Below, piece by piece: positions 2,016 to 28,231 of a DNA stretch of 35,177 nucleotides. The DNA comes from an uncultured Lachnospiraceae bacterium (GTDB lineage Bacteria > Bacillota > Clostridia > Lachnospirales > Lachnospiraceae): positions 1 to 35,177 of the forward strand of contig CAOKQK010000033.1 of assembly GCA_948470905.1 (NCBI GenBank). The letters run 5' to 3'. The translations under genes and the position numbers were made by a program. Each line of letters starts with the position of its first letter. Within the stretch, counting starts at the first letter, position 1. Under the pieces are notes generated by a model. The model had not been told where the DNA came from and did not search any database. It saw nothing but the letters and a program-made list of their open reading frames with translations.

Positions 2016-2034
2016 CAGGATTTGCTGTACTTCT

Positions 2035-2195
2035 AGTACATCGAAAAATAAGTTTCTGGCTATATCGCGCAGAATGATTTTTGCATAGACAAGGCGGAGG
2101 AAGGAGGCGATGCGGTGGCATCGTTGACTGACGACAACGAAGTATATGCAAAATCAGGCAAGCGATATGGCCAGTTACTTATTATTCGATGTACT
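2035..2195. repeat. Long-hairpin element, copy 1 (161 bp)
   Basis: The outer arms, AGTACATCGA... and ...TCGATGTACT, are complementary for about 50 bases with few mismatches. Between them, 2090-2139 holds a GA-rich core starting CAAGGCGGAGGAAGGAGG, with an internal hairpin GCGATG/CATCGT. The element is bounded by CTAG on both sides (2033-2036 and 2194-2197). No coding potential is apparent: ORFs across it are not homologous between the two copies. Confidence 0.8.
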
Positions 2196-2357
2196 AGTAC
2201 TGCGTTGCGCATATAACAGTGAATATCAGCGCTGGATTTTTGTGCCAGGGCAAGGCGGAAGAAGGAAGCGATGTGGCTCCATCGCTGACTGATGACAACG
2301 CAGCATTGGTGCAAATAGGCGGTGCTGAATTCACTGTTAATTGCGCAATACAGTACT
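2196..2357. repeat. Long-hairpin element, copy 2 (162 bp)
   Basis: It starts exactly where copy 1 ends and has the same layout: AGTACTGCG... and ...ATACAGTACT arms that pair with each other, and a core at 2251-2300 matching the copy 1 core at about 42 of 50 positions. Its arm sequence is mostly unrelated to that of copy 1, although each pair of arms is self-complementary. It is bounded by CTAG at 2194-2197 and 2356-2359. Confidence 0.8.
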
Positions 2358-14876: not shown

Positions 14877-15013
14877 ATTGTGCGCTTTCTGACAATTGAA
14901 TCAGATTACGCAGCATTGCAGATTGGATGCAATATGGAGGTCAGCCACAGCTGACCGGGCAGCTGCGGAAATCAAAGCTCAAAAATCAAAAAGGAGGAAA
15001 GAGTAGGGAAAGT

Positions 15014-18000
15014 ATGAGGAAGTCAAGAATTCTCAAAAGAAGTATCTTATCCTTGGTTCTCTGCCTGAGCCTGGTCGTATCGCCCCTGGCGGGTACGGGC
15101 ATGGCGGTTTACGCGGAGCCTTTGGCTGATACGGGAACCGAAGGCGAGGCGTCAGTGGAGCCTGAGGCAACGGAAGAACCCGAGGTAACAGAGGAACCTG
15201 CAGTGACGGAGGAGCCTGGGGTAACAGAGGAACCGCAGGTGACGGAAGAACCTGAGGTAACAGAAGAACCTGCAGTGACGGAGGAGCCTGGGGTAACAGA
15301 GGAACCGCAGGTGACGGAAGAACCTGAGGTAACAGAAGAACCTGCAGTGACGGAGGAGCCAAAGGCAACGGAAGAACCTGCAGTGACGGAGGAGCCAAAG
15401 GCAACGGAAGAACCTGCAGTGACGGAGGAGCCTGGGGTAACAGAGGAACCGCAGGTGACAGAGGAGCCGAAGGTAACGGAAGAACCGCAGGTGACAGAGG
15501 AGCCAAAGGCAACGGAAGAACCCGCAGTGACAGAGGAGCCGAAGGTAACGGAAGAACCTGCAGTGACGGAGGAGCCGAAGGTAACAGAAGAACCGAAGGT
15601 GACAGAGGAGCCTAAGGTAACAGAAGAACCTAAGGCAACGGAAGAACCTAAGGCAACAGAGGCACCCCAGATGAGCGCGGATAGGAATACCTTTTCAGCG
15701 ACTGGGGGGAGGCAGCACTATTCGCAGGATTTTAGCGCAGCAACGGAGCCGGCAGATGTAGGTGCGAAGGCTAATTATGCAGGGGCTCATTTGCAGATTA
15801 GCAATGATGATCAACATGGTGAGTATTTGTCTTTCACATTTGGCAATACAACAACAGGCGATCCAAATAGTATCTTAGATGGCTATGCTAAAGGTGCCCG
15901 TGGCGCGATGCTGAGATTTAATGCAGGCAGTGTGCTGAGTATCTCGGATGCGCAATATATTGTTGAGTTTGATGCTTTGATCAAATCATCCACTGACAAC
16001 GATAAGGGGGCGGCGCTTGCTGTTGTGAGTGCGAATGTCGCAGATGCTAAAATGAATGCGGATGTGACAGACAATTATATTGTTAAGATTGCGAGCACTG
16101 CTGCTGATAGAACTAAATTTACAATTAATGGTACCAATGAAATGAGTCTTTCTGAAACAGAATGGTATCATTATAAAATGTACGTGGATAAGGATAAAAA
16201 TATGGTGTCCACTACCATTGCTGCCACTGATGGGACGGTTCTTGCCGACAAGGTAATAACGGGGTATGGCGCTGGAACAAGCGGAGAGGTAGCGGGGCTG
16301 TATTTGGTATCACAAAAAGGCAGTAATGCAAACATTTTTGTGGATAATGTGTTGGTCCGTGAGCTGACGGAATCTGATGAGTTCGGCGCTGCGGAAAAAG
16401 CTACAGTATCCTATGATATGAATGGTCATGGCGAAGCTGTCAGTTCAGAGGAGTGCATTGTTGGCGGAATGGTGACACAGCCTGCGGCACCCAGGGCAGA
16501 AGGCTATGTCTTCATAGGCTGGTATCAGGAGGCGTCCTGCGAAAATGTATGGGATTTCGCTTCAGGAACCGTTCCAGCGGACGGTTTGACTCTCTATGCA
16601 AAGTGGATCACCGATCCGGCAGAGAGTTATACAGATGCGTTGTATGCCCAGACATTCAGCAATGTAACGGATCTTGCTGCGGCGGGCATAGTACTTCAGC
16701 CGAATAACAGGGTTGGAGATCCTATTCTCGCTGATACAGTTCATGGATATTATTTGTCGTACGTTGTTTCAGGGGCGACTGGAGGTCGTACTGGAGAGCT
16801 GACATTCCCTGCTTCGGCGGATGTTTCCACACAGAATAACTATACAGTGGAATTTGATGCCGCCATTACGCCTGGAAACAGCGATGCTTCTACTTATACT
16901 GTAAAGGATGGAAGCAACGCATATGTTTTAAAGTTTGCCAACGCTGCGGGCGGGAAAACCACATATACGTTGAATGATTCCACGGAAACGGTCGATATTC
17001 CTGCCGGTGAGTGGTGTCATTATCTGTTGGAGGTAAATAAGTCCACACAGAAAATTACCTTGACGATCACCGGATCAACTACAGGTATTATTGCTGATAA
17101 AAAAACAGTTTCTTATACCGGAGATGGTAACGTGACGGGCCTGAAGATGCAGCAGGGCAGATATGATTCAAGCTTTTTGCTTGATAACATCGTCATCAAG
17201 GCGGCTCAGGCGCCCCAGCCTCCCGTTGGAGGCACCGAGTACTATGTCACTGTGGAGAACATAAACGCAGCTGAGACTGTGGTGGACTGTTCTGCGCTGG
17301 TGAACAATGATAATGTGAAAAAGTACCGTGTGACCACTGCCAAGGACGGTAAGCTGGTGAATCAGACTTTTGTGGATCCTGCGGCTTCTTTGAAGGTGGA
17401 TACCACAGGTGCAGATAAGGTAGAGGTAACGCCTGTATTTTATTATAATATAGGAGCGCCAGGTCACAAGGGTCAGGGTGGATATGATATTTCCATGCCT
17501 GCGGGAAGCTATGATTTCCGTATCGTCAATACCAGCGGTGAACGCTGTGATGTTTACGCGGATGACCAGATGCTTGTGAACAATATCCTGCAGAATGGTT
17601 CTACGCCGAACTATTTTGACGTGAAGGATATTGTCACTTCTGCTGATACGGTCAAAATCAGCACTGAGGACTATTCAAGCAAGGGCAGTGCGGACATGAT
17701 GAAGATTCAGATTTATATGGTCCCGTCTTCTAAAATCATGGACAGGGTGCAGAAGGTATATGTGCTGGGCGACTCGCTGGTGGCAATGTACTACAATGGC
17801 GGCAGCCCGGATAACAAGGATGCCCAGACAGGATGGGGCCAAGTGCTTGCGGATTATCTCACAGAGGATGTTGATGTAATAGATCTTGCCAACAGCGGCG
17901 CTACGGCATATGATCTGAAGTCCACTGCATTTACGCAGGTACGCGGCAGTGCGCAGGCTGGTGATATCCTCCTGCTGGAGAGCGGATATAATGACCGGAC

Positions 18001-21000
18001 TACAAGCAAACCGGGATATGCGTATGTGAGCCCAACCGACAACTACATGGCGACTGCCCTGCGGGAGATGGTGTCCGCAGCCCAGGACAAGGGGATGACG
18101 GTTGTTCTGGTTTCTCCCAATGCTTCGTTGAATCCTTACAGGGGGACTCCCGGGTGGACGGAGAACATGGAGGCTGTGGTCGATGAACTGAATGCAGCAG
18201 GAAAGAATGTTGGGTATATCGACCTTGCGCAGTTGAGTTTTGATTTCCTGAGTTCAACTTACGGCACTGAGGCTGCCGGTGCAGAAGATGTAATGATGGA
18301 GGATTATGTTGTATCGGATAAGCTTCATTCCAAGTACAATGCCGCACAGAAGTATGCGTCTCTTGTGGCAGGAGAACTTTATAAGCTGGATGCAACAAAA
18401 TCTATTGTAGATGCGGATTATGCATATGTATATATTGACAGCAGGGGCAATGTGATCAGCTGCTCCGCAACAGGCAAGCTGGCGGAAGGTTATGCAAAGG
18501 TGACGTTCAGCTCCAACAGGCAGGGAAGCACGGATACATATACTGTTGTGCAGACCGGTTCCAAGCTGACAGCGCCTGCAGATCCTGCGGCGTCGGGTTT
18601 TGTCTTTGGGGGCTGGTACAAGGATGCCGCATGTACTACAGCATGGAATTTTGATGTGGATACTGTGGCAGGAGATATGACCCTGTATGCGAAGTGGAAC
18701 GCTCTTGCAGCGGGGACAATTTACACGCAGGATTTCAGCAAGGTTACGGACGCCAAAACGGTTGCGGTTTCACCTAATGCGTCGGATCAGCTGAAAATTT
18801 TAAAAGATGACAGCCATGGCAATTATTTCGCTTATGATTTTTCGTCTACGAAAACAAACAGCCGCGGCGCTTATATGGATTTTGATGGTATAGATGTCTC
18901 CAAGGTGGAGAAATATATTGTTGAGTTTGACGTGGCAATTACGCCCGGTAATGACCAGGCAACGTTCTTTGCCGTGAAGGGAACAGATTTTCAGTATGCC
19001 CCTAATGATAAAAACAAACCTGACATTAACTGGGGTGCAGGGAGCGGATACCTACTGAACCTGACAAACGGCGGTTCAGGTACTGCTTACACCCTGAATA
19101 CAACCCAGAAGGTAACGATTCCCGGCGGAGAGTGGTGCCATTACAAGCTGTATGTGGATAAAACTACAAAGCTGGTATCTACCACGATTGTGGGAACTTC
19201 TACAGGAAGTATTGCAGACAAGGTAATCACCGCCTATGACGGCGAGGGGAACGTAGCGGGTCTGTATATGCTGGCAGGCAGATATAATCCTGTCCTGGCT
19301 GTGGATAATATCCTGGTCCGCGAGGTGGATGAAAATGCGGATGAATTTGGTGAAATTACGTCTGAGGAGCTTGCCAGCGCGGAGTTTACCGCACAGCTGA
19401 ACACATTGATCTCACAGCCTGCAGAGGGTGCGCCCGTTCATAAGCAGATCACTGTCAAGGCACTGGGAGATCTTGGTGGCGACCTTACAGACAAGGTATC
19501 TGTGGCATGGTCCGTAGTGGGTCTTGAGAAGGAGGACGGCTATGTCTCTCTGACACAGGCGGCGGGGACCGGTTCGGGAACCGACGGCGATAAAGCAAAT
19601 GTGGCAGGGTACACAGGCACAACCGCTTATCTGAACGTGAGAAATGGTGTATCTAACTATTTTGGCTATGTTCAGGCGGTGGTGACTTACGGAGAGAATA
19701 GCGTCACCATAATGACGCCTTTTGCGATAGTGGGAGCGAGCGGGAGTGATGAGAACCAGCTGGCGCCTGCGACAGGCTATCCTGTCAGTATGAATGACTA
19801 TGAGGATTCCCTGGTGGGATATGTGGGAACCTCACAGGGGATCAATACAAGGGATCTGATCCTGAACAATTGGTCTATCTATGGTTCTAATGCAAAGAGA
19901 TCCATGAAGCTGGTGAAGGATGCGGATGGTACCAAGTCCCTGGAGTTTGCTTCCAATGGCGGCGGCGGTACTACAGTGGCCGTGTATCAGTGGACGGATC
20001 AGTCGGAACAGTATGTAATTGATTTTACGGCCAAGTTCAGCAGCGATATGAATTTTGGAGTTTATGCCAATACTCCCAATAACAGCGGCAACAACCCTGA
20101 ATGGAGTGCATCCTGCAGCGGAGGAGCCCTGAATTTCGGCGAAAAAAGTATCAGCGGGCTGAATGCGGACGAATGGTATCGTTTTGTGGTATCGGCGGAT
20201 CCCAGCATTCAGAAGGCTTCTATTGCGGTCTACAAGGGAAGTACCAAGGTCGGCGAGATCGAAGATGTAGACATGGCAAATAACGACAGTGTTCAGAAGT
20301 ACTTTTGCTTTATGGGCACCTGGCCGATGTATCTGAGCAGCTTTAAGGCGTATAAGCCTGTCCTGGCGACGCTGACGGCAGCTTCCGATGCGGATACCGT
20401 GAAGGTTCCCGAGGCGGGACAGCCTGCGGCAACGGTGGATTTGTCCGCGACTTTGACCAGCACGGAAGGCATTAAGATGACAGGCGCCGTGCAGTGGACG
20501 CTGGCGGAGGAATATGCTAATGTGGAGATCGAATCCACAGGCGCGCAGACGGCAACTCTTAAAATAGGAGAGGGAGCATCAGGTACTGTGACAGTCATTG
20601 CCTCCAAGGACGGCAAGCGGGCGGAGACGGAGATCATGCTTACCACCTCCTCCAATGTAGTGGCGTTTACAAAGTCTACCTCCTCCATCACCATTCCTTT
20701 TGCAGGTGAGCAGGCGGTGACAGTATCTTACACTGCGGAAACCCGTGACAAGGACGGGAAGCCTATCGAGGGCGGAGCAATCACGTATGCGCTGCTTGCA
20801 AAGGATGGCGTGACTCCTACTACGGTAAAGGGCGTAACCTTTGAGAATGGCGTGCTTACTGTGGAACCGGGTGCGGATCCGGCAGTGGTGTATGTGAAAG
20901 CTTCTAATGAAATAGGGCTTTCCACAAAGGTAAAGGTAAATATTCACGGTTTATCCTTTGCATTCGGTTCACAGGATGCAGCGGAGGGATATACACATGT

Positions 21001-24000
21001 GACGGATACTCTGTATACAGACAAACTGGGTTATGGCTTTGGCGATACCAGCGGTCTGACTGTAAATGCAGACAATGTGACCGGCCAGAAGGATTTCCGC
21101 TTTAAGGCAAAGGTTCCCAACGGCAACTATGTTGTCAAGGTGGATACCACTGCGGCGGCTCTGACTTCTGAGGTCGTGGAGTCTGTGAGTGCGGTGACAG
21201 GAATTCAGAAGACAGGCAGTTCCTTCAGTGTCGCGGTGTGCGACGGCGTGTTGGATCTGACCTTCCCTGCAGCGTCCAGCGTAAAGAGCATTGTGATCTC
21301 CCAGGCGCCGGCGAAGCAGGCACTTGCAAAGCCCTATATCTATGCGATTGGTGATTCCACCACGAAGAACACGGCTGATGGGGCGAAGTCATGGGGTAAC
21401 TGCGCGGATGAGAAACTGGTGCAGATTCCCGAGGTATTTGGCGGCTTTGTCAACCACGGAAAGGCAGGAGATGATTCTGTCGTATATTATAGGAACGGAA
21501 GGCTGGAAGCAGTGCTTCTCGCAATCTGCCCCGGCGACTATGTGACAGTCAATATGGGTATCAACTCCAAGGAGACAGGCGAAGCGGCTGCTTATGAAAC
21601 CCTGATGAGGGACTATTATATCCAGGGTATCCTGCAGCGCGGCGGTATTCCGGTCATCCTGACAGCGACCCCGGACGGTCCTGTGGGCGACAGGCTCAGC
21701 ATGAATTATGACCAGACCACGGGCAAGTTCACGAATAACCGCGGCGATGGCGCAAGAAACAATGTATTGAGGAAGATTGCATCTGAGCTGGATGTAAAGC
21801 TGATCGAGCTTGGTCAGTGGGGTGAGGATTGGATGAATACCCTGGCGGCGGAGGATGTGCAGAATTACAATGCAGCATACCTTACCAATTATAAGACGGT
21901 TCTGGAGATGGTACAGAGCTGGTATGTGGATCACAACCATTACAAGGAGTATCTCGGCAAACAGATCGCCTGGTATCTGTACAGCGAGCTTGCCGAAATG
22001 GCTGGCGGGACCGCTCCGGAGCGTCCGGGACTGCCTAAGCCTCAGGGCGGCCAGATCATTGAGGATTTTGAAGTAACCACAGACTGGGAGCTGACCGGCG
22101 ATATGGCAGGCAGGTTCACAGTGAAAGAGGACGGAAAAGGCGGTCATTTCCTGGCAGGTGACGGCGCGGAAATCAGCGGCGGAAACCATTATGCAAAGAA
22201 AGTGTTTGCAGATCTGCCGGATATGGCAACAGCGGAGATCAGTGTTGACTGGATCGCAAACAGCGCCGAACTGAAGACGCAGGATAAACAGGCCTATTAC
22301 GCACTGCAGCTCTGGTCCGGAGAGATGGAGCTTGTATCGCTTTATGTCTCGGATTTAAGGGACAATGCACCTGCAAAGCTGTATTATTCGGCTACGGGCA
22401 TCGGTGACAAGAAAGACACAGGCATGACGCTGAAACAGGGGGAGACCCTGAACGTTAAGTTTGCGTTGAATTTCCAGACACATACGCTGGATATCTATCT
22501 GAACGGAACAAAGGCAGCGGAAGGCATCAGCTTTAACGAGCTGGCGTCCAAGGTGGATACCTTTGCCATTGGGGCTCTGGATGATACGGTCGCTAAAAAG
22601 AAGTATCCCAATTTTGCAGTAGATAATTTCGTGCTTGCTTATAAGGAAGGCACGGCACAGGATCTCAGCAAGCTGGTGAAGTCCTTACAGCCTATGGAAC
22701 AGAGGGAGCATGGCCTGGTCAGCAGTATGTCAGAGTTTGTACACCCTGCGAAGGCGACAGTAGTCCTGGGCGACGACACGGAACTGGAAGTGGAGATCGA
22801 TGGGACGACATGGACAGTTGACAGGACAGTCAACTTCGCGGAAGTGGGTACCTATACCTGGACGGCGGATCTGATCATGCCGGAGGGCTACAGCAATCCC
22901 AACAAGGTGAAGGCGACTTATGTGATGAAGTACCTGGCGTCTTACCGGAATACGGATATGAATGCACTTGGTTCCCTTCCTGTAGTGACGCTGAACAAAG
23001 CACAGTACGAGGCAGGCTACAGCCATCCCGACAAGATCGCGGCGAAGCTGGTAAGCGGCGACTGGTGCAGTCTTGAGATCGACCAGAGCACCTGGACCTG
23101 TGAACCTGCATTTGACAGGGATGTGAGAGCAGTCTACATCTGGACGGCGGAGATTAAGGATGACGGAGTCCATGGCAATCCGAAGAACTTCAAGGCTACC
23201 TATACTATGCATTATGAAGCGAACTGGGTAAAGAGCCATGATATTGAAGAAGACTTCCTCTTTGGCTATCCCGGCTGGGATGTGTGGGGGAAGGATATTG
23301 ACAGTACCTCGGGCACCGGCGGTTTTGGTTTTGAGATCAGGGGGACAGGAGACGACTCCCACCTGTATGCTACCCAGGGTGAAAGCAAGAACAGAGGCTC
23401 CAGGATGAATCTGTCCACCGACATCGTAAAGGGCGCGGTTATGGAATTTGACTTTAAGCCCTCAGTGGTAAATGGCGGACATGTGGATCTTCTCTTTGTG
23501 GCACCTGCCTATAAGCAGAATTATCTGTCGCTCCTTGTGGGCACAGACGGCAAGGTCAGCTACCATACCACGGAGGATCTGGCTGGAAGCGGCGGGCATC
23601 CTACCAACAACACCTTTGACGGCATGATCTCCTCCGGCAGCCCTGTGGCCACCGGCGTGGGCGCCATTGACAAGTGGATGCATGTGAAGGTGGAGTTTGA
23701 TTATCTTGCACATACGGCATCTCTGACGGTGACATCAAAGGAGAATCCTGCGGAGACCTATACAGTGTCAGATATCCCCATTGATGACAGGGCAAACGGA
23801 CTGTCCATCATGGTACTGCGCAAGCTTGCGGCCTGCAAGAGGGCAGAGGTGGCGTTTGACAATGTGATCGTGGATTATACGAAATTTGACAGCGGCGACA
23901 TTACCAAGCTGGCACAGCCTAAGGATGTGATCGTGGCTGAGAGTGAATTTGAGAAGTTTGTACTGCCTACGGAAGTGACGGCGACTCTCGGAGACAACAG

Positions 24001-27000
24001 CAAGGTGATGGTTCCTGTGAAAGAGTGGAGTTCCGAGCCGGAATTTAAGAGAGGCGTTCCTGGGACATATGTCTGGAAGGCGGAGATTGACAATGAGAAG
24101 CTGGGCCTGACGAATTACTTTGGGCTTTCCGTTTCCTTTACCATGACCTATTCCATGCTTCCTTTCCCTACGAACCTGTTCAATCCCAACACGCTGGAGC
24201 TGACCTTTGGGCAGGCGCTGCCGGAGCAGTTCCCCACTCAGGTGGAAGCGAGGATGAGTGATGGTTCTACGCGGAAGGTGAGTGTAAGCGAGTGGACACC
24301 GATCCGTGAGTTTAATGCGGATCAGGAAGGCATTTATGTCTACGGCGCAACGGTCCAGCCTGTAGCAGGCGACTATGATGTGGTAAGAGATAAGCTTTCT
24401 CCCAGTGAGAACGATACCACCGCATTGCAGGATTACGAGGAGTATAAGAAATACGATGTGTTCTACCGCATCAGCTATTTTAAGGATGATGTGGACAATT
24501 ATAACGGCTATGAACGTACAATGGAAAATCTGGACCGCGGCGTATATGCGGTTGCGGTGAATGGCGGAGTCTTCGTTTCCTGGAGACTGCTGGCCACAGA
24601 GTACGGCACAGACAAAAACGTTTCCTTTGACGTATACAGAAATGGTGCGAAAGTGAATGATGCACCTATTACAGACAAAACAAACCTTGTGGATGCGGAG
24701 GGTAAGGCAGGCGATACCTATACCGTAGTCAAGACCCAGGGCGGACAGACTTACGAGGGCGCAGAGGCGAAGGCAAGTTCAGAAAACTACCTGAGCATTC
24801 CTGTGCAGAAGCCGGAACCGCAGGCTGACAAAAACGGAAACCTTTCCGCTTATACGCTCAACGATATGGGTGTTGCGGATGTGGACGGAGACGGCGAGTA
24901 CGAGTTCATCGTGAAGTGGTATCCGGACAATGGGTTTGACTCCGGTAATGCTGTGGCTCCATCCTCTCCTACGATCTTTGACCTGTATGAGCTGGACGGG
25001 ACGCCTCTCTGGAGACTGAACCTTGGACTGGAGATGCCTTCCGGCGCACACTTTAACCAGTTCATGCTCTATGACCTGGATGAGGACGGCAAGGCGGAGC
25101 TCTTTATCAAGACCTCAGACGGCAGTGTCAGCTACAGACCTAATGCGCAGGGTAAGTTTGACATGAATGATGCAGGCACTGTAATTGCCTATATAGGCGA
25201 TAAGAGTGTGGAACCCGGGTCCAATGTAGATCCCAACGGTCATGTGAACGCTAATTCCAATGAATATGTGACTGTATTTAACGGAAAGACCGGAGAAGTG
25301 ATCGACTCCATAGAATTTGTAAACAGGACCCATGACTATATGGATTGGAGCCCGAAGAGCGATGGAGGCAACCGTTCCGCAAGATACAATATTGCCATCG
25401 CATATCTGCCCGAGAATCAGAACGATGCAGGCTGCACGGAGACAATCCCGGCGGTATTGTTCAACCGCGGATACTATGCGAAGACCACTGTTGCAGCATA
25501 TACTCTCAGGGGGGGCAAGTTAAATCTGGAGTGGAACTTTGTAGCTGAAAATGACGATGTTAACGCCGGCAAGGGCAACCATAATATGTCCACCGGTGAC
25601 ATTGACAAGGATGGATTTGATGAACTTATCATCGGTGCGCTGGCCATCGACCATAACGGCAAAGTGCTCTGGGTGAAGGACGGACAGGAAGGACGGGACT
25701 TCGCGGGCCACGCGGATACGATCCATCTGGCGGCAATGAACCCTGACAGCAATGACCTCTATGTGTTTACGCCAAATGAGGAAAAAGATCATTCAACCAT
25801 GAATGCGGCTGTTGTAAATGCACGCACGGGCGCCCGTGTCAGCGGTGTATTCTTCTCACTGAAGGACGTGGGACGCGCGATCGCGGCAAACATTACGCCA
25901 AAGCCCGGCTATGAGTATTGGTCGGCAGCCACGGGAAGCGGAGTTTATGCCTTTGACGGCAGTGAGATTTCTCCTACGATACCTGTTCCCATGAACTGGA
26001 GAATGTATTGGGACGGCGACCTGCTCAGCGAGCTTGCTGACGGCGTAGGCAATGATGATGACTGGATGATCACAAAGTACAATTGGGAGAACAATACGGT
26101 GGATACGCTTGCCGTACTGGAAGGAACCAAGACAAACAACTGGAGTAAGAAAACTCCCGGACTGACAGCAGATCTGTTCGGTGACTGGCGTGAAGAAGTT
26201 GCGGTGCGGAATGAAGATGATACGGAAATCCGCATTTACATGACCACCGAAGAAACAGATTACATGATCTATACACTGATGCATGACCCTGTGTACCGCA
26301 ACGCAGTTGCGAACCAGAATACGTCATATAATCAGCCTCCACATGTAGGCTTCTATCTGGGTGAAGACAACAGGGATACCGTGCTGGCCATGGGGCTTCC
26401 CACTGCAGAAATCAAGTATGGTACGCCAACAGAAGAAATAGTTACCTGGGCGGATACTCAGGACGAAATTCCGGAACCGACTGAGGAAGTGAAGCAGCAG
26501 ACAGGCTGCAGCACGGCGGAGGAACTGAAGGTTTTCCTGAAGGATAAGGTAGTTGCCGAGACTCTAAATGCTGCAGGTGTAAAAATTCCGGATCAGAACA
26601 CTCTTGTTCAGGAAGTGGAAATCAGAATCAGCCGCGACGGAGGAAAAACCTTTGAAAAGGCAACAGCTGACAACTTCCCGCGAGAAGGTGTGAAAGTAGT
26701 TCTGCCCTATCCGGAGGGAACAAACAAGACGGATTACGAGTTTACCGTCAGCCATCTGATCACCATAAGCTGTAATGGCCTGAAGGCAGGTGAGGTAGTG
26801 AACGAAGTCGTCACCAAGACCGATAAGGGACTGGAGATGATCATAAAGAGCGCTTCCCCGTTTGCAGTAGGCTGGTATAAGGTGGGAACGGAGCCATCTC
26901 CGGACCCGACCGAACAGCCGTCGCAGCCGACAGAGCAGCCAACGACGCCGCCAACGGCACAGCCTACAGAGCCGCCGACTGAACAGCCGACGACACCGCC

Positions 27001-27379
27001 GACAGCGCAGCCGACTGAACAGCCGACGCCGACCGAACAGCCATCACCGGAGGACCCGAACGACCAGGAAGATTGGGAGGATCAGGAGGATACGGATGAC
27101 CAGGAGAACCTGGACGACCAGAGCAAACCGGAGGATCAGGTTAAACCGGATGACCAGGGCAAACCGGAGGATCAGGTTAAACCGGATGACCAGAACAAAC
27201 CTGACGATCAGGGCAGCGGGGATGACTCAGTTGTGAATACGTCTGACGATAAGGTCAGCATTCCTGCAAAGACCGGAGATCATATGGGAAGCCTTCTGTG
27301 GCTGTGCATTGTGTTTATTGTCATAGCTGCGGCGGGAATTGCGACAATCCTGTTCGTAAGGTGTCGCAAGAAGAAATAA
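15014..27379 (+). CDS. Giant surface rhamnogalacturonan-degrading enzyme (two esterase domains plus PL11 lyase)
   Basis: A 4121-residue multimodular protein. A signal peptide (1-34, cut likely after VYA) is followed by a TEEP-rich linker (~47-218). Next come beta-sandwich (LamG-like) modules near 234-454, 542-729, 1234-1439, 1589-1779, 2342-2546 and 2742-2956; two InlB-type B repeats (ending GLTLYAKW and DMTLYAKW); and Ig-like modules. Two SGNH domains resemble rhamnogalacturonan acetylesterase (CE12): S921 in GDSL, N993, D1102/H1105; and S2115 in GDST, N2184, D2306/H2309. A family 11 rhamnogalacturonan lyase spans ~3160-3790 (GVADVDGDGEYE, STGDIDKDGFDELIIG, TADLFGDWREEV). The end has Pro/Thr- and Asp/Gln-rich linkers, the IPAKTGD motif (4083-4089), a membrane helix and RCRKKK. 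The ATG at 15014 was chosen because it starts the signal peptide with AGGG five bases upstream; the ATG at 14927 has no ribosome site. Confidence 0.93.
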   Translation: MRKSRILKRSILSLVLCLSLVVSPLAGTGMAVYAEPLADTGTEGEASVEPEATEEPEVTEEPAVTEEPGVTEEPQVTEEPEVTEEPAVTEEPGVTEEPQVTEEPEVTEEPAVTEEPKATEEPAVTEEPKATEEPAVTEEPGVTEEPQVTEEPKVTEEPQVTEEPKATEEPAVTEEPKVTEEPAVTEEPKVTEEPKVTEEPKVTEEPKATEEPKATEAPQMSADRNTFSATGGRQHYSQDFSAATEPADVGAKANYAGAHLQISNDDQHGEYLSFTFGNTTTGDPNSILDGYAKGARGAMLRFNAGSVLSISDAQYIVEFDALIKSSTDNDKGAALAVVSANVADAKMNADVTDNYIVKIASTAADRTKFTINGTNEMSLSETEWYHYKMYVDKDKNMVSTTIAATDGTVLADKVITGYGAGTSGEVAGLYLVSQKGSNANIFVDNVLVRELTESDEFGAAEKATVSYDMNGHGEAVSSEECIVGGMVTQPAAPRAEGYVFIGWYQEASCENVWDFASGTVPADGLTLYAKWITDPAESYTDALYAQTFSNVTDLAAAGIVLQPNNRVGDPILADTVHGYYLSYVVSGATGGRTGELTFPASADVSTQNNYTVEFDAAITPGNSDASTYTVKDGSNAYVLKFANAAGGKTTYTLNDSTETVDIPAGEWCHYLLEVNKSTQKITLTITGSTTGIIADKKTVSYTGDGNVTGLKMQQGRYDSSFLLDNIVIKAAQAPQPPVGGTEYYVTVENINAAETVVDCSALVNNDNVKKYRVTTAKDGKLVNQTFVDPAASLKVDTTGADKVEVTPVFYYNIGAPGHKGQGGYDISMPAGSYDFRIVNTSGERCDVYADDQMLVNNILQNGSTPNYFDVKDIVTSADTVKISTEDYSSKGSADMMKIQIYMVPSSKIMDRVQKVYVLGDSLVAMYYNGGSPDNKDAQTGWGQVLADYLTEDVDVIDLANSGATAYDLKSTAFTQVRGSAQAGDILLLESGYNDRTTSKPGYAYVSPTDNYMATALREMVSAAQDKGMTVVLVSPNASLNPYRGTPGWTENMEAVVDELNAAGKNVGYIDLAQLSFDFLSSTYGTEAAGAEDVMMEDYVVSDKLHSKYNAAQKYASLVAGELYKLDATKSIVDADYAYVYIDSRGNVISCSATGKLAEGYAKVTFSSNRQGSTDTYTVVQTGSKLTAPADPAASGFVFGGWYKDAACTTAWNFDVDTVAGDMTLYAKWNALAAGTIYTQDFSKVTDAKTVAVSPNASDQLKILKDDSHGNYFAYDFSSTKTNSRGAYMDFDGIDVSKVEKYIVEFDVAITPGNDQATFFAVKGTDFQYAPNDKNKPDINWGAGSGYLLNLTNGGSGTAYTLNTTQKVTIPGGEWCHYKLYVDKTTKLVSTTIVGTSTGSIADKVITAYDGEGNVAGLYMLAGRYNPVLAVDNILVREVDENADEFGEITSEELASAEFTAQLNTLISQPAEGAPVHKQITVKALGDLGGDLTDKVSVAWSVVGLEKEDGYVSLTQAAGTGSGTDGDKANVAGYTGTTAYLNVRNGVSNYFGYVQAVVTYGENSVTIMTPFAIVGASGSDENQLAPATGYPVSMNDYEDSLVGYVGTSQGINTRDLILNNWSIYGSNAKRSMKLVKDADGTKSLEFASNGGGGTTVAVYQWTDQSEQYVIDFTAKFSSDMNFGVYANTPNNSGNNPEWSASCSGGALNFGEKSISGLNADEWYRFVVSADPSIQKASIAVYKGSTKVGEIEDVDMANNDSVQKYFCFMGTWPMYLSSFKAYKPVLATLTAASDADTVKVPEAGQPAATVDLSATLTSTEGIKMTGAVQWTLAEEYANVEIESTGAQTATLKIGEGASGTVTVIASKDGKRAETEIMLTTSSNVVAFTKSTSSITIPFAGEQAVTVSYTAETRDKDGKPIEGGAITYALLAKDGVTPTTVKGVTFENGVLTVEPGADPAVVYVKASNEIGLSTKVKVNIHGLSFAFGSQDAAEGYTHVTDTLYTDKLGYGFGDTSGLTVNADNVTGQKDFRFKAKVPNGNYVVKVDTTAAALTSEVVESVSAVTGIQKTGSSFSVAVCDGVLDLTFPAASSVKSIVISQAPAKQALAKPYIYAIGDSTTKNTADGAKSWGNCADEKLVQIPEVFGGFVNHGKAGDDSVVYYRNGRLEAVLLAICPGDYVTVNMGINSKETGEAAAYETLMRDYYIQGILQRGGIPVILTATPDGPVGDRLSMNYDQTTGKFTNNRGDGARNNVLRKIASELDVKLIELGQWGEDWMNTLAAEDVQNYNAAYLTNYKTVLEMVQSWYVDHNHYKEYLGKQIAWYLYSELAEMAGGTAPERPGLPKPQGGQIIEDFEVTTDWELTGDMAGRFTVKEDGKGGHFLAGDGAEISGGNHYAKKVFADLPDMATAEISVDWIANSAELKTQDKQAYYALQLWSGEMELVSLYVSDLRDNAPAKLYYSATGIGDKKDTGMTLKQGETLNVKFALNFQTHTLDIYLNGTKAAEGISFNELASKVDTFAIGALDDTVAKKKYPNFAVDNFVLAYKEGTAQDLSKLVKSLQPMEQREHGLVSSMSEFVHPAKATVVLGDDTELEVEIDGTTWTVDRTVNFAEVGTYTWTADLIMPEGYSNPNKVKATYVMKYLASYRNTDMNALGSLPVVTLNKAQYEAGYSHPDKIAAKLVSGDWCSLEIDQSTWTCEPAFDRDVRAVYIWTAEIKDDGVHGNPKNFKATYTMHYEANWVKSHDIEEDFLFGYPGWDVWGKDIDSTSGTGGFGFEIRGTGDDSHLYATQGESKNRGSRMNLSTDIVKGAVMEFDFKPSVVNGGHVDLLFVAPAYKQNYLSLLVGTDGKVSYHTTEDLAGSGGHPTNNTFDGMISSGSPVATGVGAIDKWMHVKVEFDYLAHTASLTVTSKENPAETYTVSDIPIDDRANGLSIMVLRKLAACKRAEVAFDNVIVDYTKFDSGDITKLAQPKDVIVAESEFEKFVLPTEVTATLGDNSKVMVPVKEWSSEPEFKRGVPGTYVWKAEIDNEKLGLTNYFGLSVSFTMTYSMLPFPTNLFNPNTLELTFGQALPEQFPTQVEARMSDGSTRKVSVSEWTPIREFNADQEGIYVYGATVQPVAGDYDVVRDKLSPSENDTTALQDYEEYKKYDVFYRISYFKDDVDNYNGYERTMENLDRGVYAVAVNGGVFVSWRLLATEYGTDKNVSFDVYRNGAKVNDAPITDKTNLVDAEGKAGDTYTVVKTQGGQTYEGAEAKASSENYLSIPVQKPEPQADKNGNLSAYTLNDMGVADVDGDGEYEFIVKWYPDNGFDSGNAVAPSSPTIFDLYELDGTPLWRLNLGLEMPSGAHFNQFMLYDLDEDGKAELFIKTSDGSVSYRPNAQGKFDMNDAGTVIAYIGDKSVEPGSNVDPNGHVNANSNEYVTVFNGKTGEVIDSIEFVNRTHDYMDWSPKSDGGNRSARYNIAIAYLPENQNDAGCTETIPAVLFNRGYYAKTTVAAYTLRGGKLNLEWNFVAENDDVNAGKGNHNMSTGDIDKDGFDELIIGALAIDHNGKVLWVKDGQEGRDFAGHADTIHLAAMNPDSNDLYVFTPNEEKDHSTMNAAVVNARTGARVSGVFFSLKDVGRAIAANITPKPGYEYWSAATGSGVYAFDGSEISPTIPVPMNWRMYWDGDLLSELADGVGNDDDWMITKYNWENNTVDTLAVLEGTKTNNWSKKTPGLTADLFGDWREEVAVRNEDDTEIRIYMTTEETDYMIYTLMHDPVYRNAVANQNTSYNQPPHVGFYLGEDNRDTVLAMGLPTAEIKYGTPTEEIVTWADTQDEIPEPTEEVKQQTGCSTAEELKVFLKDKVVAETLNAAGVKIPDQNTLVQEVEIRISRDGGKTFEKATADNFPREGVKVVLPYPEGTNKTDYEFTVSHLITISCNGLKAGEVVNEVVTKTDKGLEMIIKSASPFAVGWYKVGTEPSPDPTEQPSQPTEQPTTPPTAQPTEPPTEQPTTPPTAQPTEQPTPTEQPSPEDPNDQEDWEDQEDTDDQENLDDQSKPEDQVKPDDQGKPEDQVKPDDQNKPDDQGSGDDSVVNTSDDKVSIPAKTGDHMGSLLWLCIVFIVIAAAGIATILFVRCRKKK
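15153..15669 (+). repeat. TEEP-encoding tandem repeat
   Basis: Degenerate 18-base units encode (P)xVTEEP or (P)xATEEP, more than 20 times. Larger blocks (for example the stretch from 15190 repeated from 15256) are nearly identical, which points to recent internal duplication. The product is an extended acidic wall-spanning linker just after the signal peptide. Confidence 0.9.
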
Positions 27380-27424: not shown

Positions 27425-28231
27425 ATGAAGCTGAAAAAACATGAAATTGCATTGGTCATTCTTTTGGCGATGCTCATCGTAGCTGCTGGCATTATGATAT
27501 TTGTGACGCTTCGGGAGTATGCGGAGGGAGACAGAACCTATTATGGATTTCAGGAGTATGTCTTCCTTCCGGAGGAGACGCCTGCGGTAAGACCGGATTC
27601 CGGCGAGACCGCAGGCATACCGGAAACGCCCGTACCGGAAGAAAAAAACATGGGGGAGGAGCCTGTTGACAGGACTCCTCCCACTGTTGATTTTGTCGGC
27701 CTGCAGGCGGTCAACCCGGATATCCTCGGCTGGATCTACAGCGCCGGGACTCCGATCAATTATCCTGTCGTGCAGGGTGATACCAATGAGGAATATCTGT
27801 ATCGAATGGTGGACGGAAGCAGCAATAAATGCGGCAGTATTTTTCTGGACTGTGGGAATGACAGGGGGTTACAGGATGCAAACAGTATTATCCAGGGCCA
27901 TAACATGAGTAATGGCTCCATGTTTGCAGAGCTGAAGAAATATGCGAAACAGGAATATTATGACGAGCATACGGGGATCTGGCTGGTGACGCCGGAACAG
28001 ACCTACAGCATTGAGATATTTGCGGCCTTTGTCACGGCTGTGGACAGTGAGGTATGGAAACAGACCTTTTCTTCGGAGGATGAATTTACTGCCTGGAAGT
28101 CGGAGATGGCGCGGAAGTCTTTCTTTACGAGCAGTGTATTTCCCCAGGCGGGTGAGAAAGTGGTCACTCTTTCCACCTGCAGTTACGAATTTGAAAACGC
28201 ACATTTTGTGGTGATAGGTGTTTTAAGATAA
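27425..28231 (+). CDS. Class B sortase (catalytic Arg replaced by His)
   Basis: A membrane-anchored transpeptidase of 268 aa that joins sorted proteins to the cell wall. Residues 8-29 form an N-terminal membrane anchor, followed by a Pro/Glu-rich linker to ~85. The catalytic domain has the class B pattern: DILGWIYSAGTPINYPVVQG, then IIQGHNM with H159, then TLSTCSYEF with C252. Sortases use Cys, His and Arg; the Arg is normally about eight to ten residues after the Cys, in an ARFVV-like strand. Here that strand reads NAHFVVIGVLR, with CAT for H260. It begins 45 bases after the giant gene, with only a weak site (AAAAGAG), so it probably shares the transcript and anchors that protein. Activity is uncertain because of the Arg change. 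Confidence 0.9.
   Translation: MKLKKHEIALVILLAMLIVAAGIMIFVTLREYAEGDRTYYGFQEYVFLPEETPAVRPDSGETAGIPETPVPEEKNMGEEPVDRTPPTVDFVGLQAVNPDILGWIYSAGTPINYPVVQGDTNEEYLYRMVDGSSNKCGSIFLDCGNDRGLQDANSIIQGHNMSNGSMFAELKKYAKQEYYDEHTGIWLVTPEQTYSIEIFAAFVTAVDSEVWKQTFSSEDEFTAWKSEMARKSFFTSSVFPQAGEKVVTLSTCSYEFENAHFVVIGVLR

Follow-up and report, generated by a model that had tools for sequence, protein, structure and literature searches.

Twin IS630-Type MITEs in a Lachnospiraceae Genome and the Structured-RNA-Like Fold They Probably Carry

Introduction

Several described families of small bacterial repeats lie close to the twin hairpin elements considered here, which stand end to end in a 35,177-nucleotide stretch of DNA (the window, meaning that whole stretch; GenBank assembly GCA_948470905.1, contig CAOKQK010000033.1, positions 1 to 35,177, forward strand) from an uncultured Lachnospiraceae bacterium. 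The repeat unit of pneumococcus (RUP) is described as a small intergenic element with IS630-like terminal repeats and TA-containing insertion sites, and IS630-Spn1 has been proposed as its mobiliser (PMC2229807). The bcr1-bcr3 repeats of Bacillus cereus, NEMIS/Correia, and ERIC are described as repeats similar to miniature inverted-repeat transposable elements (MITEs), the transcripts of which fold as long stem-loops, and about half of the bcr copies are given as transcribed in two strains (PMC3446304, PMC2229807). MITEPsy1 of Pseudomonas syringae is presented as a 100-nt MITE that duplicates CTAG or YTAA upon insertion (PMC3189936).

The twin elements of the window are classed, from the sequence of their ends, as IS630-type MITEs, and they belong to a family that has IS630-like arms, inserts at CTAG, covaries along its stem, and keeps its core as far as Streptomyces. 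The reading favoured here is that they are probably passengers that IS630-family transposases mobilise and that bear a previously undescribed fold resembling a structured RNA. In a non-autonomous DNA transposon, the ends are expected to persist and the middle to be lost; here the expectation is inverted, as the middle is kept from Lachnospiraceae to Streptomyces and the ends are changed. No description of the hairpin family was found in open-licence papers, which is weak evidence of absence.

The Twin Elements and Insertion at CTAG

The original prediction had described two self-pairing elements set end to end, with a common 50-base core, unlike stems, and CTAG at three borders, and all of this holds, with true ends that lie 2 bases further out on each side (Table 1). 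The two cores are identical at 42 of 50 positions (by eye), and the sole direct repeat reported between the copies comprises 68 nt around the core, with 78% identity. Within each copy, the arms are 87-89% complementary (36 nt and 89% in element 1; 31 nt and 87% in element 2, at 2194-2224/2329-2359). Copy 1 (149 nt) folds at -61 kcal/mol (z -8.5) and copy 2 (133 nt) at -60 kcal/mol (z -8.0), and 0 of 200 shuffles were as good in either case. Both elements are short (body of 157-158 bp) and have inverted terminal repeats, as is usual for MITEs. An 84-aa frame with a TTG start spans both elements on the minus strand (2060-2314) and was not taken as a gene.

Comparison of filled with empty sites, proposed earlier as a check, gave two cases in which a tetranucleotide on each side of the element corresponds to a single CTAG where the element is absent. 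In the first, an element (L049) lies inside a relative of another hairpin (L046), at loci that are approx. 76% alike; the empty form has one CTAG, whereas the filled form has CTAG on both sides. In the second, TTAG and CTAA surround the element in the aromatase-fabG spacer of Streptomyces coelicoflavus, and a 98.7% identical plasmid has a single CTAG, although the pair is not perfectly clean, as the filled spacer has more extra sequence on the left. Streptomyces plasmids L348/L357 and L374 differ by a hairpin in a polyketide gene cluster, in the aromatase/cyclase-fabG interval. When the ends of 159 elements were tallied in sets pre-filtered by length (163-168 bp in the first set, 158-170 bp in the second), 92 had CTAG at both ends; of the other 67, 8 had identical direct repeats, 4 had inverted complements, and 35 had CTAG on one side. 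These tallies fit a 2-bp and a 4-bp duplication alike.

IS630 is said, in the title of a 1991 paper by Tenzen and Ohtsubo (cited in PMC2170065), to favour the TA within CTAG. In the proposed mechanism, the twin copies would be non-autonomous DNA transposons moved in trans by IS630-family (Tc1/mariner) transposases, which would insert at the TA of CTAG; copy 2 may adjoin copy 1 because every element supplies a CTAG at its end. It had been suggested earlier that the core instead reaches its sites through a process in which the adjacent DNA is duplicated in inverted form. Such a process would suit the arms that differ between the twin copies; it is, however, contradicted by the element-free sites, which have a single CTAG and no arm sequence. 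Moreover, near-identical elements occur in differing flanks (L001 and L002, by eye), and arms recur in groups at different sites and resemble IS630 ends, which leaves this process a very slight probability.

Resemblance of the Arms to IS630 Ends

Clustering of the left arms gave 21 groups, and arms are common to the members of a subfamily. When the loci were scanned for inverted arms between two CTAG sites, 70 unique pairs were obtained, 60 of them at 160-169 bp (0 in the control with uncomplemented arms), and the same scan found two elements of approx. 1.4 kb (L104 and L122) that code for IS630-family transposases. The L104 transposase scores 203 bits against NF033545 (cut-off 100) and matches DDE_3 at 1.6e-23; that of L122 lies in two halves of 61 and 97 bits, each below the cut-off of 100. 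A third IS630 element (L161) was found in the single-contig genome G006 of the same genus, and its right end agrees with the right arm of copy 1 at 25 of 30 positions. The region 5885-7210 of L157 was rejected as an autonomous element, as its open reading frames (ORFs) are not transposase-like by eye.

Eighteen of 19 IS630 ends, from 10 elements, resemble hairpin arms above the shuffled 95th percentile (17/30), with best arm matches of 17-25 of 30 compared with a mean of 14.9 and a maximum of 20 in 1900 shuffles. The resemblance covers the outer ~36 bp of the arms; the arms of copy 2 do not appear among the two best arms shown for any IS630 end. CTAG stands at both ends of all 9 IS630 elements with two placed ends, a count favoured by the search, which required TA and in which some ends were shifted outward to CTAG; no pair of ends was obtained for L315, and a single end of L316 lies within its contig. 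An IS630 match is present in 15 of 61 genus genomes. Moreover, hairpins are carried by 7 of 18 family genomes with an L161-type transposase, compared with 48 of 281 others (Fisher p 0.03).

Mobilisation in trans by IS630 is likely on these grounds. The outer ~36 bp of each arm would act as terminal repeats, and the arms may vary between subfamilies and stay matched within an element because whichever transposase is available must be able to use the two ends alike. The original prediction had regarded the pair as the reverse of a MITE, which was not upheld, since the outer arms resemble CTAG-bounded IS630 ends and are common within subfamilies. It had also recognised no known class; the element class can now be named, while the statement stands for RNA, with no Rfam family at the gathering threshold. 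Conservation of the arms along with the core, named there as the sign of an ordinary transposon derivative, is found within subfamilies and fails between them. Three chimeric elements (L019, L023, and L038) have the left arm of one type and the right arm of another, through either artefact or recombination; the assembly from which they come is in 330 contigs.

Family Size and Taxonomic Range

The window's own genome (G000; 3.7 Mb, assembly 90% complete) has 18 matches to the core of copy 1, itself included. Element 1 has a 99% identical copy at G000:C16, where the flanks differ (by eye), and element 2 has near-identical copies at C57 (98%) and C8 (97%). Of 41 genomes of relatives, 5 have core matches, all of them inside the 25 genus genomes, and the element region was matched in 13 of 101 genus genomes, among the matches listed. 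A pattern scan of named genomes gave at least 119 stretches, under titles that include Lachnospiraceae, Clostridiaceae, Hungatella, Acetatifactor, Blautia, and Eisenbergiella; Eisenbergiella tayi DSM 26961 is one carrier (copy in L158). The core, which might have proved to occur only here, is thus found widely. The 162 core hits included 129 distinct ones with enough flank, 105 of which have at least 30 arm pairs; with ends sought solely within fixed distances of the core, 91 of these 105 elements measure 165 or 166 bp, both CTAG sites included.

Model R1, which matches element 1 with an E value of 4.5e-31, has matches in 55 of 299 family genomes (the window's genome included), in 18 of 391 in a class sample (14 of the 18 outside the family), and in 19 of 398 in a phylum sample; the three samples overlap, and each holds the window's genome. 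Copy numbers from R1 are lower bounds because the best 7-9 candidates per genome were scored. Among plasmid records, 8 from Streptomyces match the core consensus, and 30, every one from Streptomyces, match a Streptomyces core used as a query; all 5 of the Streptomyces loci to which R1 was applied gave a match (53-83 bits). For the two elements of the window, no plasmid match was found. Phage and viral contigs gave no match to the queries used, and an origin from phages or viruses was rejected accordingly.

The conservation of the core between the window's phylum and Streptomyces would also suit a regulatory RNA of host origin that IS630 ends took up and dispersed and that is now of use to the host. 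Carriage within the genus is nevertheless patchy (the 5 of 25 genomes and the 13 of 101 among the matches listed), long ORFs contain 3 of the 105 copies, the other 102 being outside (simple ORF calls), and no clear orientation bias relative to genes is seen, which together make a host function improbable.

Related repeats were noted alongside the family. A second hairpin family occupies 14 places (L027, L030, L048, L098, L106, L114, L119, L122, L137, L142 (two), L143, L144, and L155), with lengths of 133-167 bp, mostly 166, ends AGCGTGTTTGAAAA, and a different core (CCAAATGARGGAGGCGYAG..); it often has one CTAG in common with an element of the first family. A variant with an extended core, in which approx. 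52 bases including GTGTGCCAGTGGCACAC are added, is present at L068, L084, L120, and L153 (217-221 bp) and at L259 (216 bp). Further element lengths of 133 and 144 lie approx. whole helical turns away from 165. In L308 (G337:C7), near-identical hairpins at 391-554 and 1552-1715 stand in opposite orientation approx. 1 kb apart, in the manner of a composite transposon, and the flanks of the elements in L126 and L118 hold CTAG-bounded hairpins of approx. 35 bp that resemble internal deletions of B-type arms.

Covariation and Strand Bias of the Stem

The covariation alignment comprised 27 of 30 representatives, the chimeric or degenerate L023, L117, and L010 having been excluded; in a further alignment (A3), the row of L235 was shortened. 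RNAalifold gave 60 pairs for it, 45 of them with compensatory double changes. Paired cells amounted to 91.7%, compared with 68.8% in shuffled and 31-47% in slid controls; double-change cells numbered 391, compared with 128.5 shuffled (0 of 500 shuffles reached the observed count) and 71-99 slid; and the covariation score was 0.650, compared with 0.225 shuffled and at most 0.140 slid. In particular, 13 of the 14 pairs of the inner helix, which lies closer to the core than the IS630-like part, show double changes. Selection on the hairpin fold is well supported by these comparisons, in line with one of the two earlier suggestions, namely that the stem is kept paired while its sequence drifts, as in a structured RNA.

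Mismatches in the arms are not symmetrical. With pairing scored neutrally, G.T outnumbers A.C by 74 to 31 in 96 of the 105 elements, chimeras included; by cluster, G.T exceeds A.C in 15 of 18, with 2 the reverse and 1 tie. The excess is seen in each third of the arms (17 vs. 6 and 23 vs. 9 in the outer two, 33 vs. 11 in the inner). A second set, drawn largely from other genera and oriented by core letters only, gave 114 G.T and 58 A.C over 35 clusters, of which 25 favour G.T, 7 favour A.C, and 3 are tied (sign test p 0.002); 16 of 76 elements without the orienting core motif were left out of this set. A model-oriented count of 157 vs. 78 was biased by the covariance model and was not used. Selection on one strand is likely, subject to the control described below, and the folded molecule would more probably be RNA than single-stranded DNA.

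One alternative is an ordinary MITE that acts at the DNA level, with arms matched by one transposase and by template-switch palindrome correction, a core that is a DNA site for a host or transposition protein, and an incidental fold. The likeness of the arms to IS630 ends fits this account, the narrow range of element lengths would be in keeping with a DNA synapse, orientation relative to genes is not clearly biased, and IS630 ends may share the G.T excess (26 vs. 15; see below). However, the inner and apical helices covary beyond the IS630-like part, palindrome correction should erase unpaired loops, yet these are kept in many genera (by eye), and G.T outnumbers A.C in the hairpin arms; on balance, the account is rather doubtful. 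A one-strand bias would fit RNA or single-stranded DNA, and facing GA doublets can form in both. A single strand of DNA recognised as a hairpin in mobilisation or replication, as with integron attC, would also agree with the promoter-like site not found in 1900-2700; such a molecule is an unlikely alternative to RNA.

The Conserved Core

In an alignment of 23 cores chosen by hand (7 Streptomyces cores and 16 from the window's phylum, the window included), 11 core pairs are predicted, and all 11 have at least one double change that preserves pairing. The letters GGAGGA..GA and GA..GACGACAACG are largely kept across the 23 cores. These conserved letters form facing GA doublets, which is consistent with tandem G.A pairs, under an apical helix that covaries between phyla. 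In three sets of elements, all three facing doublets are present in 40 of 85, 14 of 78, and 9 of 14, compared with 0.1, 0.15, and 0 in shuffles, and the inner two in 77 of 85, 41 of 78, and 10 of 14, compared with 9.05, 7.2, and 1.3; the pattern was picked after the cores had been viewed. The positions between the doublets pair in 30, 27, and 20 of 32 distinct cores. Some cores have a plain helix in place of the outer part (by eye). A peptide read from a Shine-Dalgarno sequence and AUG in the core was considered and dropped, as many cores no longer have the AUG (by eye).

Evidence Weighed Against the Favoured Reading

A number of observations weigh against an IS630-mobilised passenger with an RNA-like fold. 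As regards mobilisation, no element-free site at the window's own locus was found in 101 genus genomes, none of which showed both flanks together among the matches listed, and no IS630 match was found in the window's own genome, the assembly of which is 90% complete. Among the five carriers within the 41 relatives, G001 alone has an IS630 match; an IS630 of the same genus (L163/L186) has TA ends without CTAG; and two Streptomyces arms used as queries gave only hairpin-like places and no annotated transposase. As regards the fold, the sequences that yielded the structure are also those on which it was scored, which favours it in the slid control, and the clusters are no phylogeny. Some core pairs are broken or gapped in up to 6 of 23 cores, and in the diverse set, 64 of 78 elements lack the three GA doublets. 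In a control of nine IS630 end pairs, G.T and A.C stand at 20 and 21 as fetched and at 26 and 15 when gene-oriented; the strand bias may not be special to the hairpins because this control is small and depends on orientation.

As regards RNA, the whole window has no Rfam 15 family at the gathering threshold, no promoter-like site was found in 1900-2700, and orientation relative to adjacent genes is not clearly biased (19 ++, 26 --, 26 +-, and 18 -+). Transcription of the hairpins is unproven because of the latter two results. Permissive Rfam searches (E limits of 5, 2, and 1) of a piece of the window, of 20 loci with hairpins, and of 5 loci from Streptomyces gave six matches, all below gathering, and a known Rfam RNA was rejected: CRISPR-DR47, 5.8S, tRNA-Sec, and P10 lie outside the hairpins, and mir-26 and mir-4803, both weak, lie on the L269 hairpin.

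Proposed Function and Its Meaning

In the favoured reading, the inner arms and the core would not be transposon ends; they would form a fold of almost fixed length, built of an outer stem, a GCAGRAU/AGRCAAG internal loop, an inner stem, facing GA doublets set apart by Watson-Crick pairs, and a small apical helix. The core-sense strand may act as a structured RNA that aids persistence of the element, for example, by binding a host protein or by making insertions in transcripts tolerable. A bolder proposal, which is put forward only tentatively, is that the ~165-nt rod with GA doublets represents a mobile structured-RNA class common to the window's phylum and Actinomycetota, the ends of which would be exchanged or re-evolved for each IS630-type transposase and the folded transcript of which would itself be required for the element to be mobilised or to survive. 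Should the RNA prove functional, the family would offer a DNA passenger element whose dependence on RNA can be put to the test; if it does not, the family would show what else preserves such a fold over such distances. The core is also a candidate RNA motif outside Rfam 15.

Features of the Window

Table 1. Coordinates of the twin hairpin elements and their parts, in positions of the window.
Feature	Position	Strand	Remark
Hairpin element 1	2033-2197	+ (core strand)	165 bp with both CTAG
Hairpin element 2	2194-2359	+ (core strand)	166 bp with both CTAG; CTAG 2194-2197 common to element 1
Element 1 left arm, IS630-end-like part	2033-2068	+	Repeat search and IS630-end comparison
Element 1 right arm	2162-2197	-	Matches IS630 right end in G006 (L161), 25/30
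Conserved internal loop GCAGAAT, left side	2069-2075	+	By eye
Conserved internal loop AGGCAAG, right side	2156-2162	+	By eye
Core of element 1	2090-2139	+	
Core 1 facing GA doublets	2097-2098/2133-2134, 2100-2101/2130-2131, 2104-2105/2126-2127		
Core 1 apical helix	2106-2125	+	
Core of element 2	2251-2300	+	
CTAG border, target sequence	2033-2036	Unstranded	Element-free sites known at other loci
CTAG border common to both elements	2194-2197	Unstranded	
CTAG border, right end	2356-2359	Unstranded	

Just after the twin, a further imperfect inverted repeat is seen by eye at 2362-2510 (AGCAACAG...CACCTGTCTG / CCAGACAGGTCACGGAACTGTTGCT); a comparable sequence lies beside L010 within this genome, so the repeat may represent another family. 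Elsewhere in the window, positions 14927-27379 code for a 4150-aa protein with rhamnogalacturonan lyase family 11, GDSL lipase, Big_4, and Listeria-Bacteroides repeat domains and with long TEEP repeats close to its start. The next gene (27425-28231) is class B sortase-like by eye.

Comparison with Known Systems

HEARO, the IscB omega RNA, is a structured RNA on a mobile element that is present in many copies; the hairpins differ from it in that they have no Rfam match at the gathering threshold and have IS630-like ends. For bcr1-bcr3, NEMIS/Correia, and ERIC, we know of no fixed length combined with a GA-doublet core that crosses phyla. MITEPsy1 differs in its ends, which are likened to those of ISPsy2, of the IS5 family, and not to IS630 (PMC3189936). 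RUP shares with the hairpin family a small size, IS630-like terminal repeats, and a TA-containing target. However, RUP is described as 107 bp long and from S. pneumoniae, whereas the hairpin family measures approx. 165 bp, extends over many genera and into Streptomyces, and combines arms like several IS630 ends with a covarying core.
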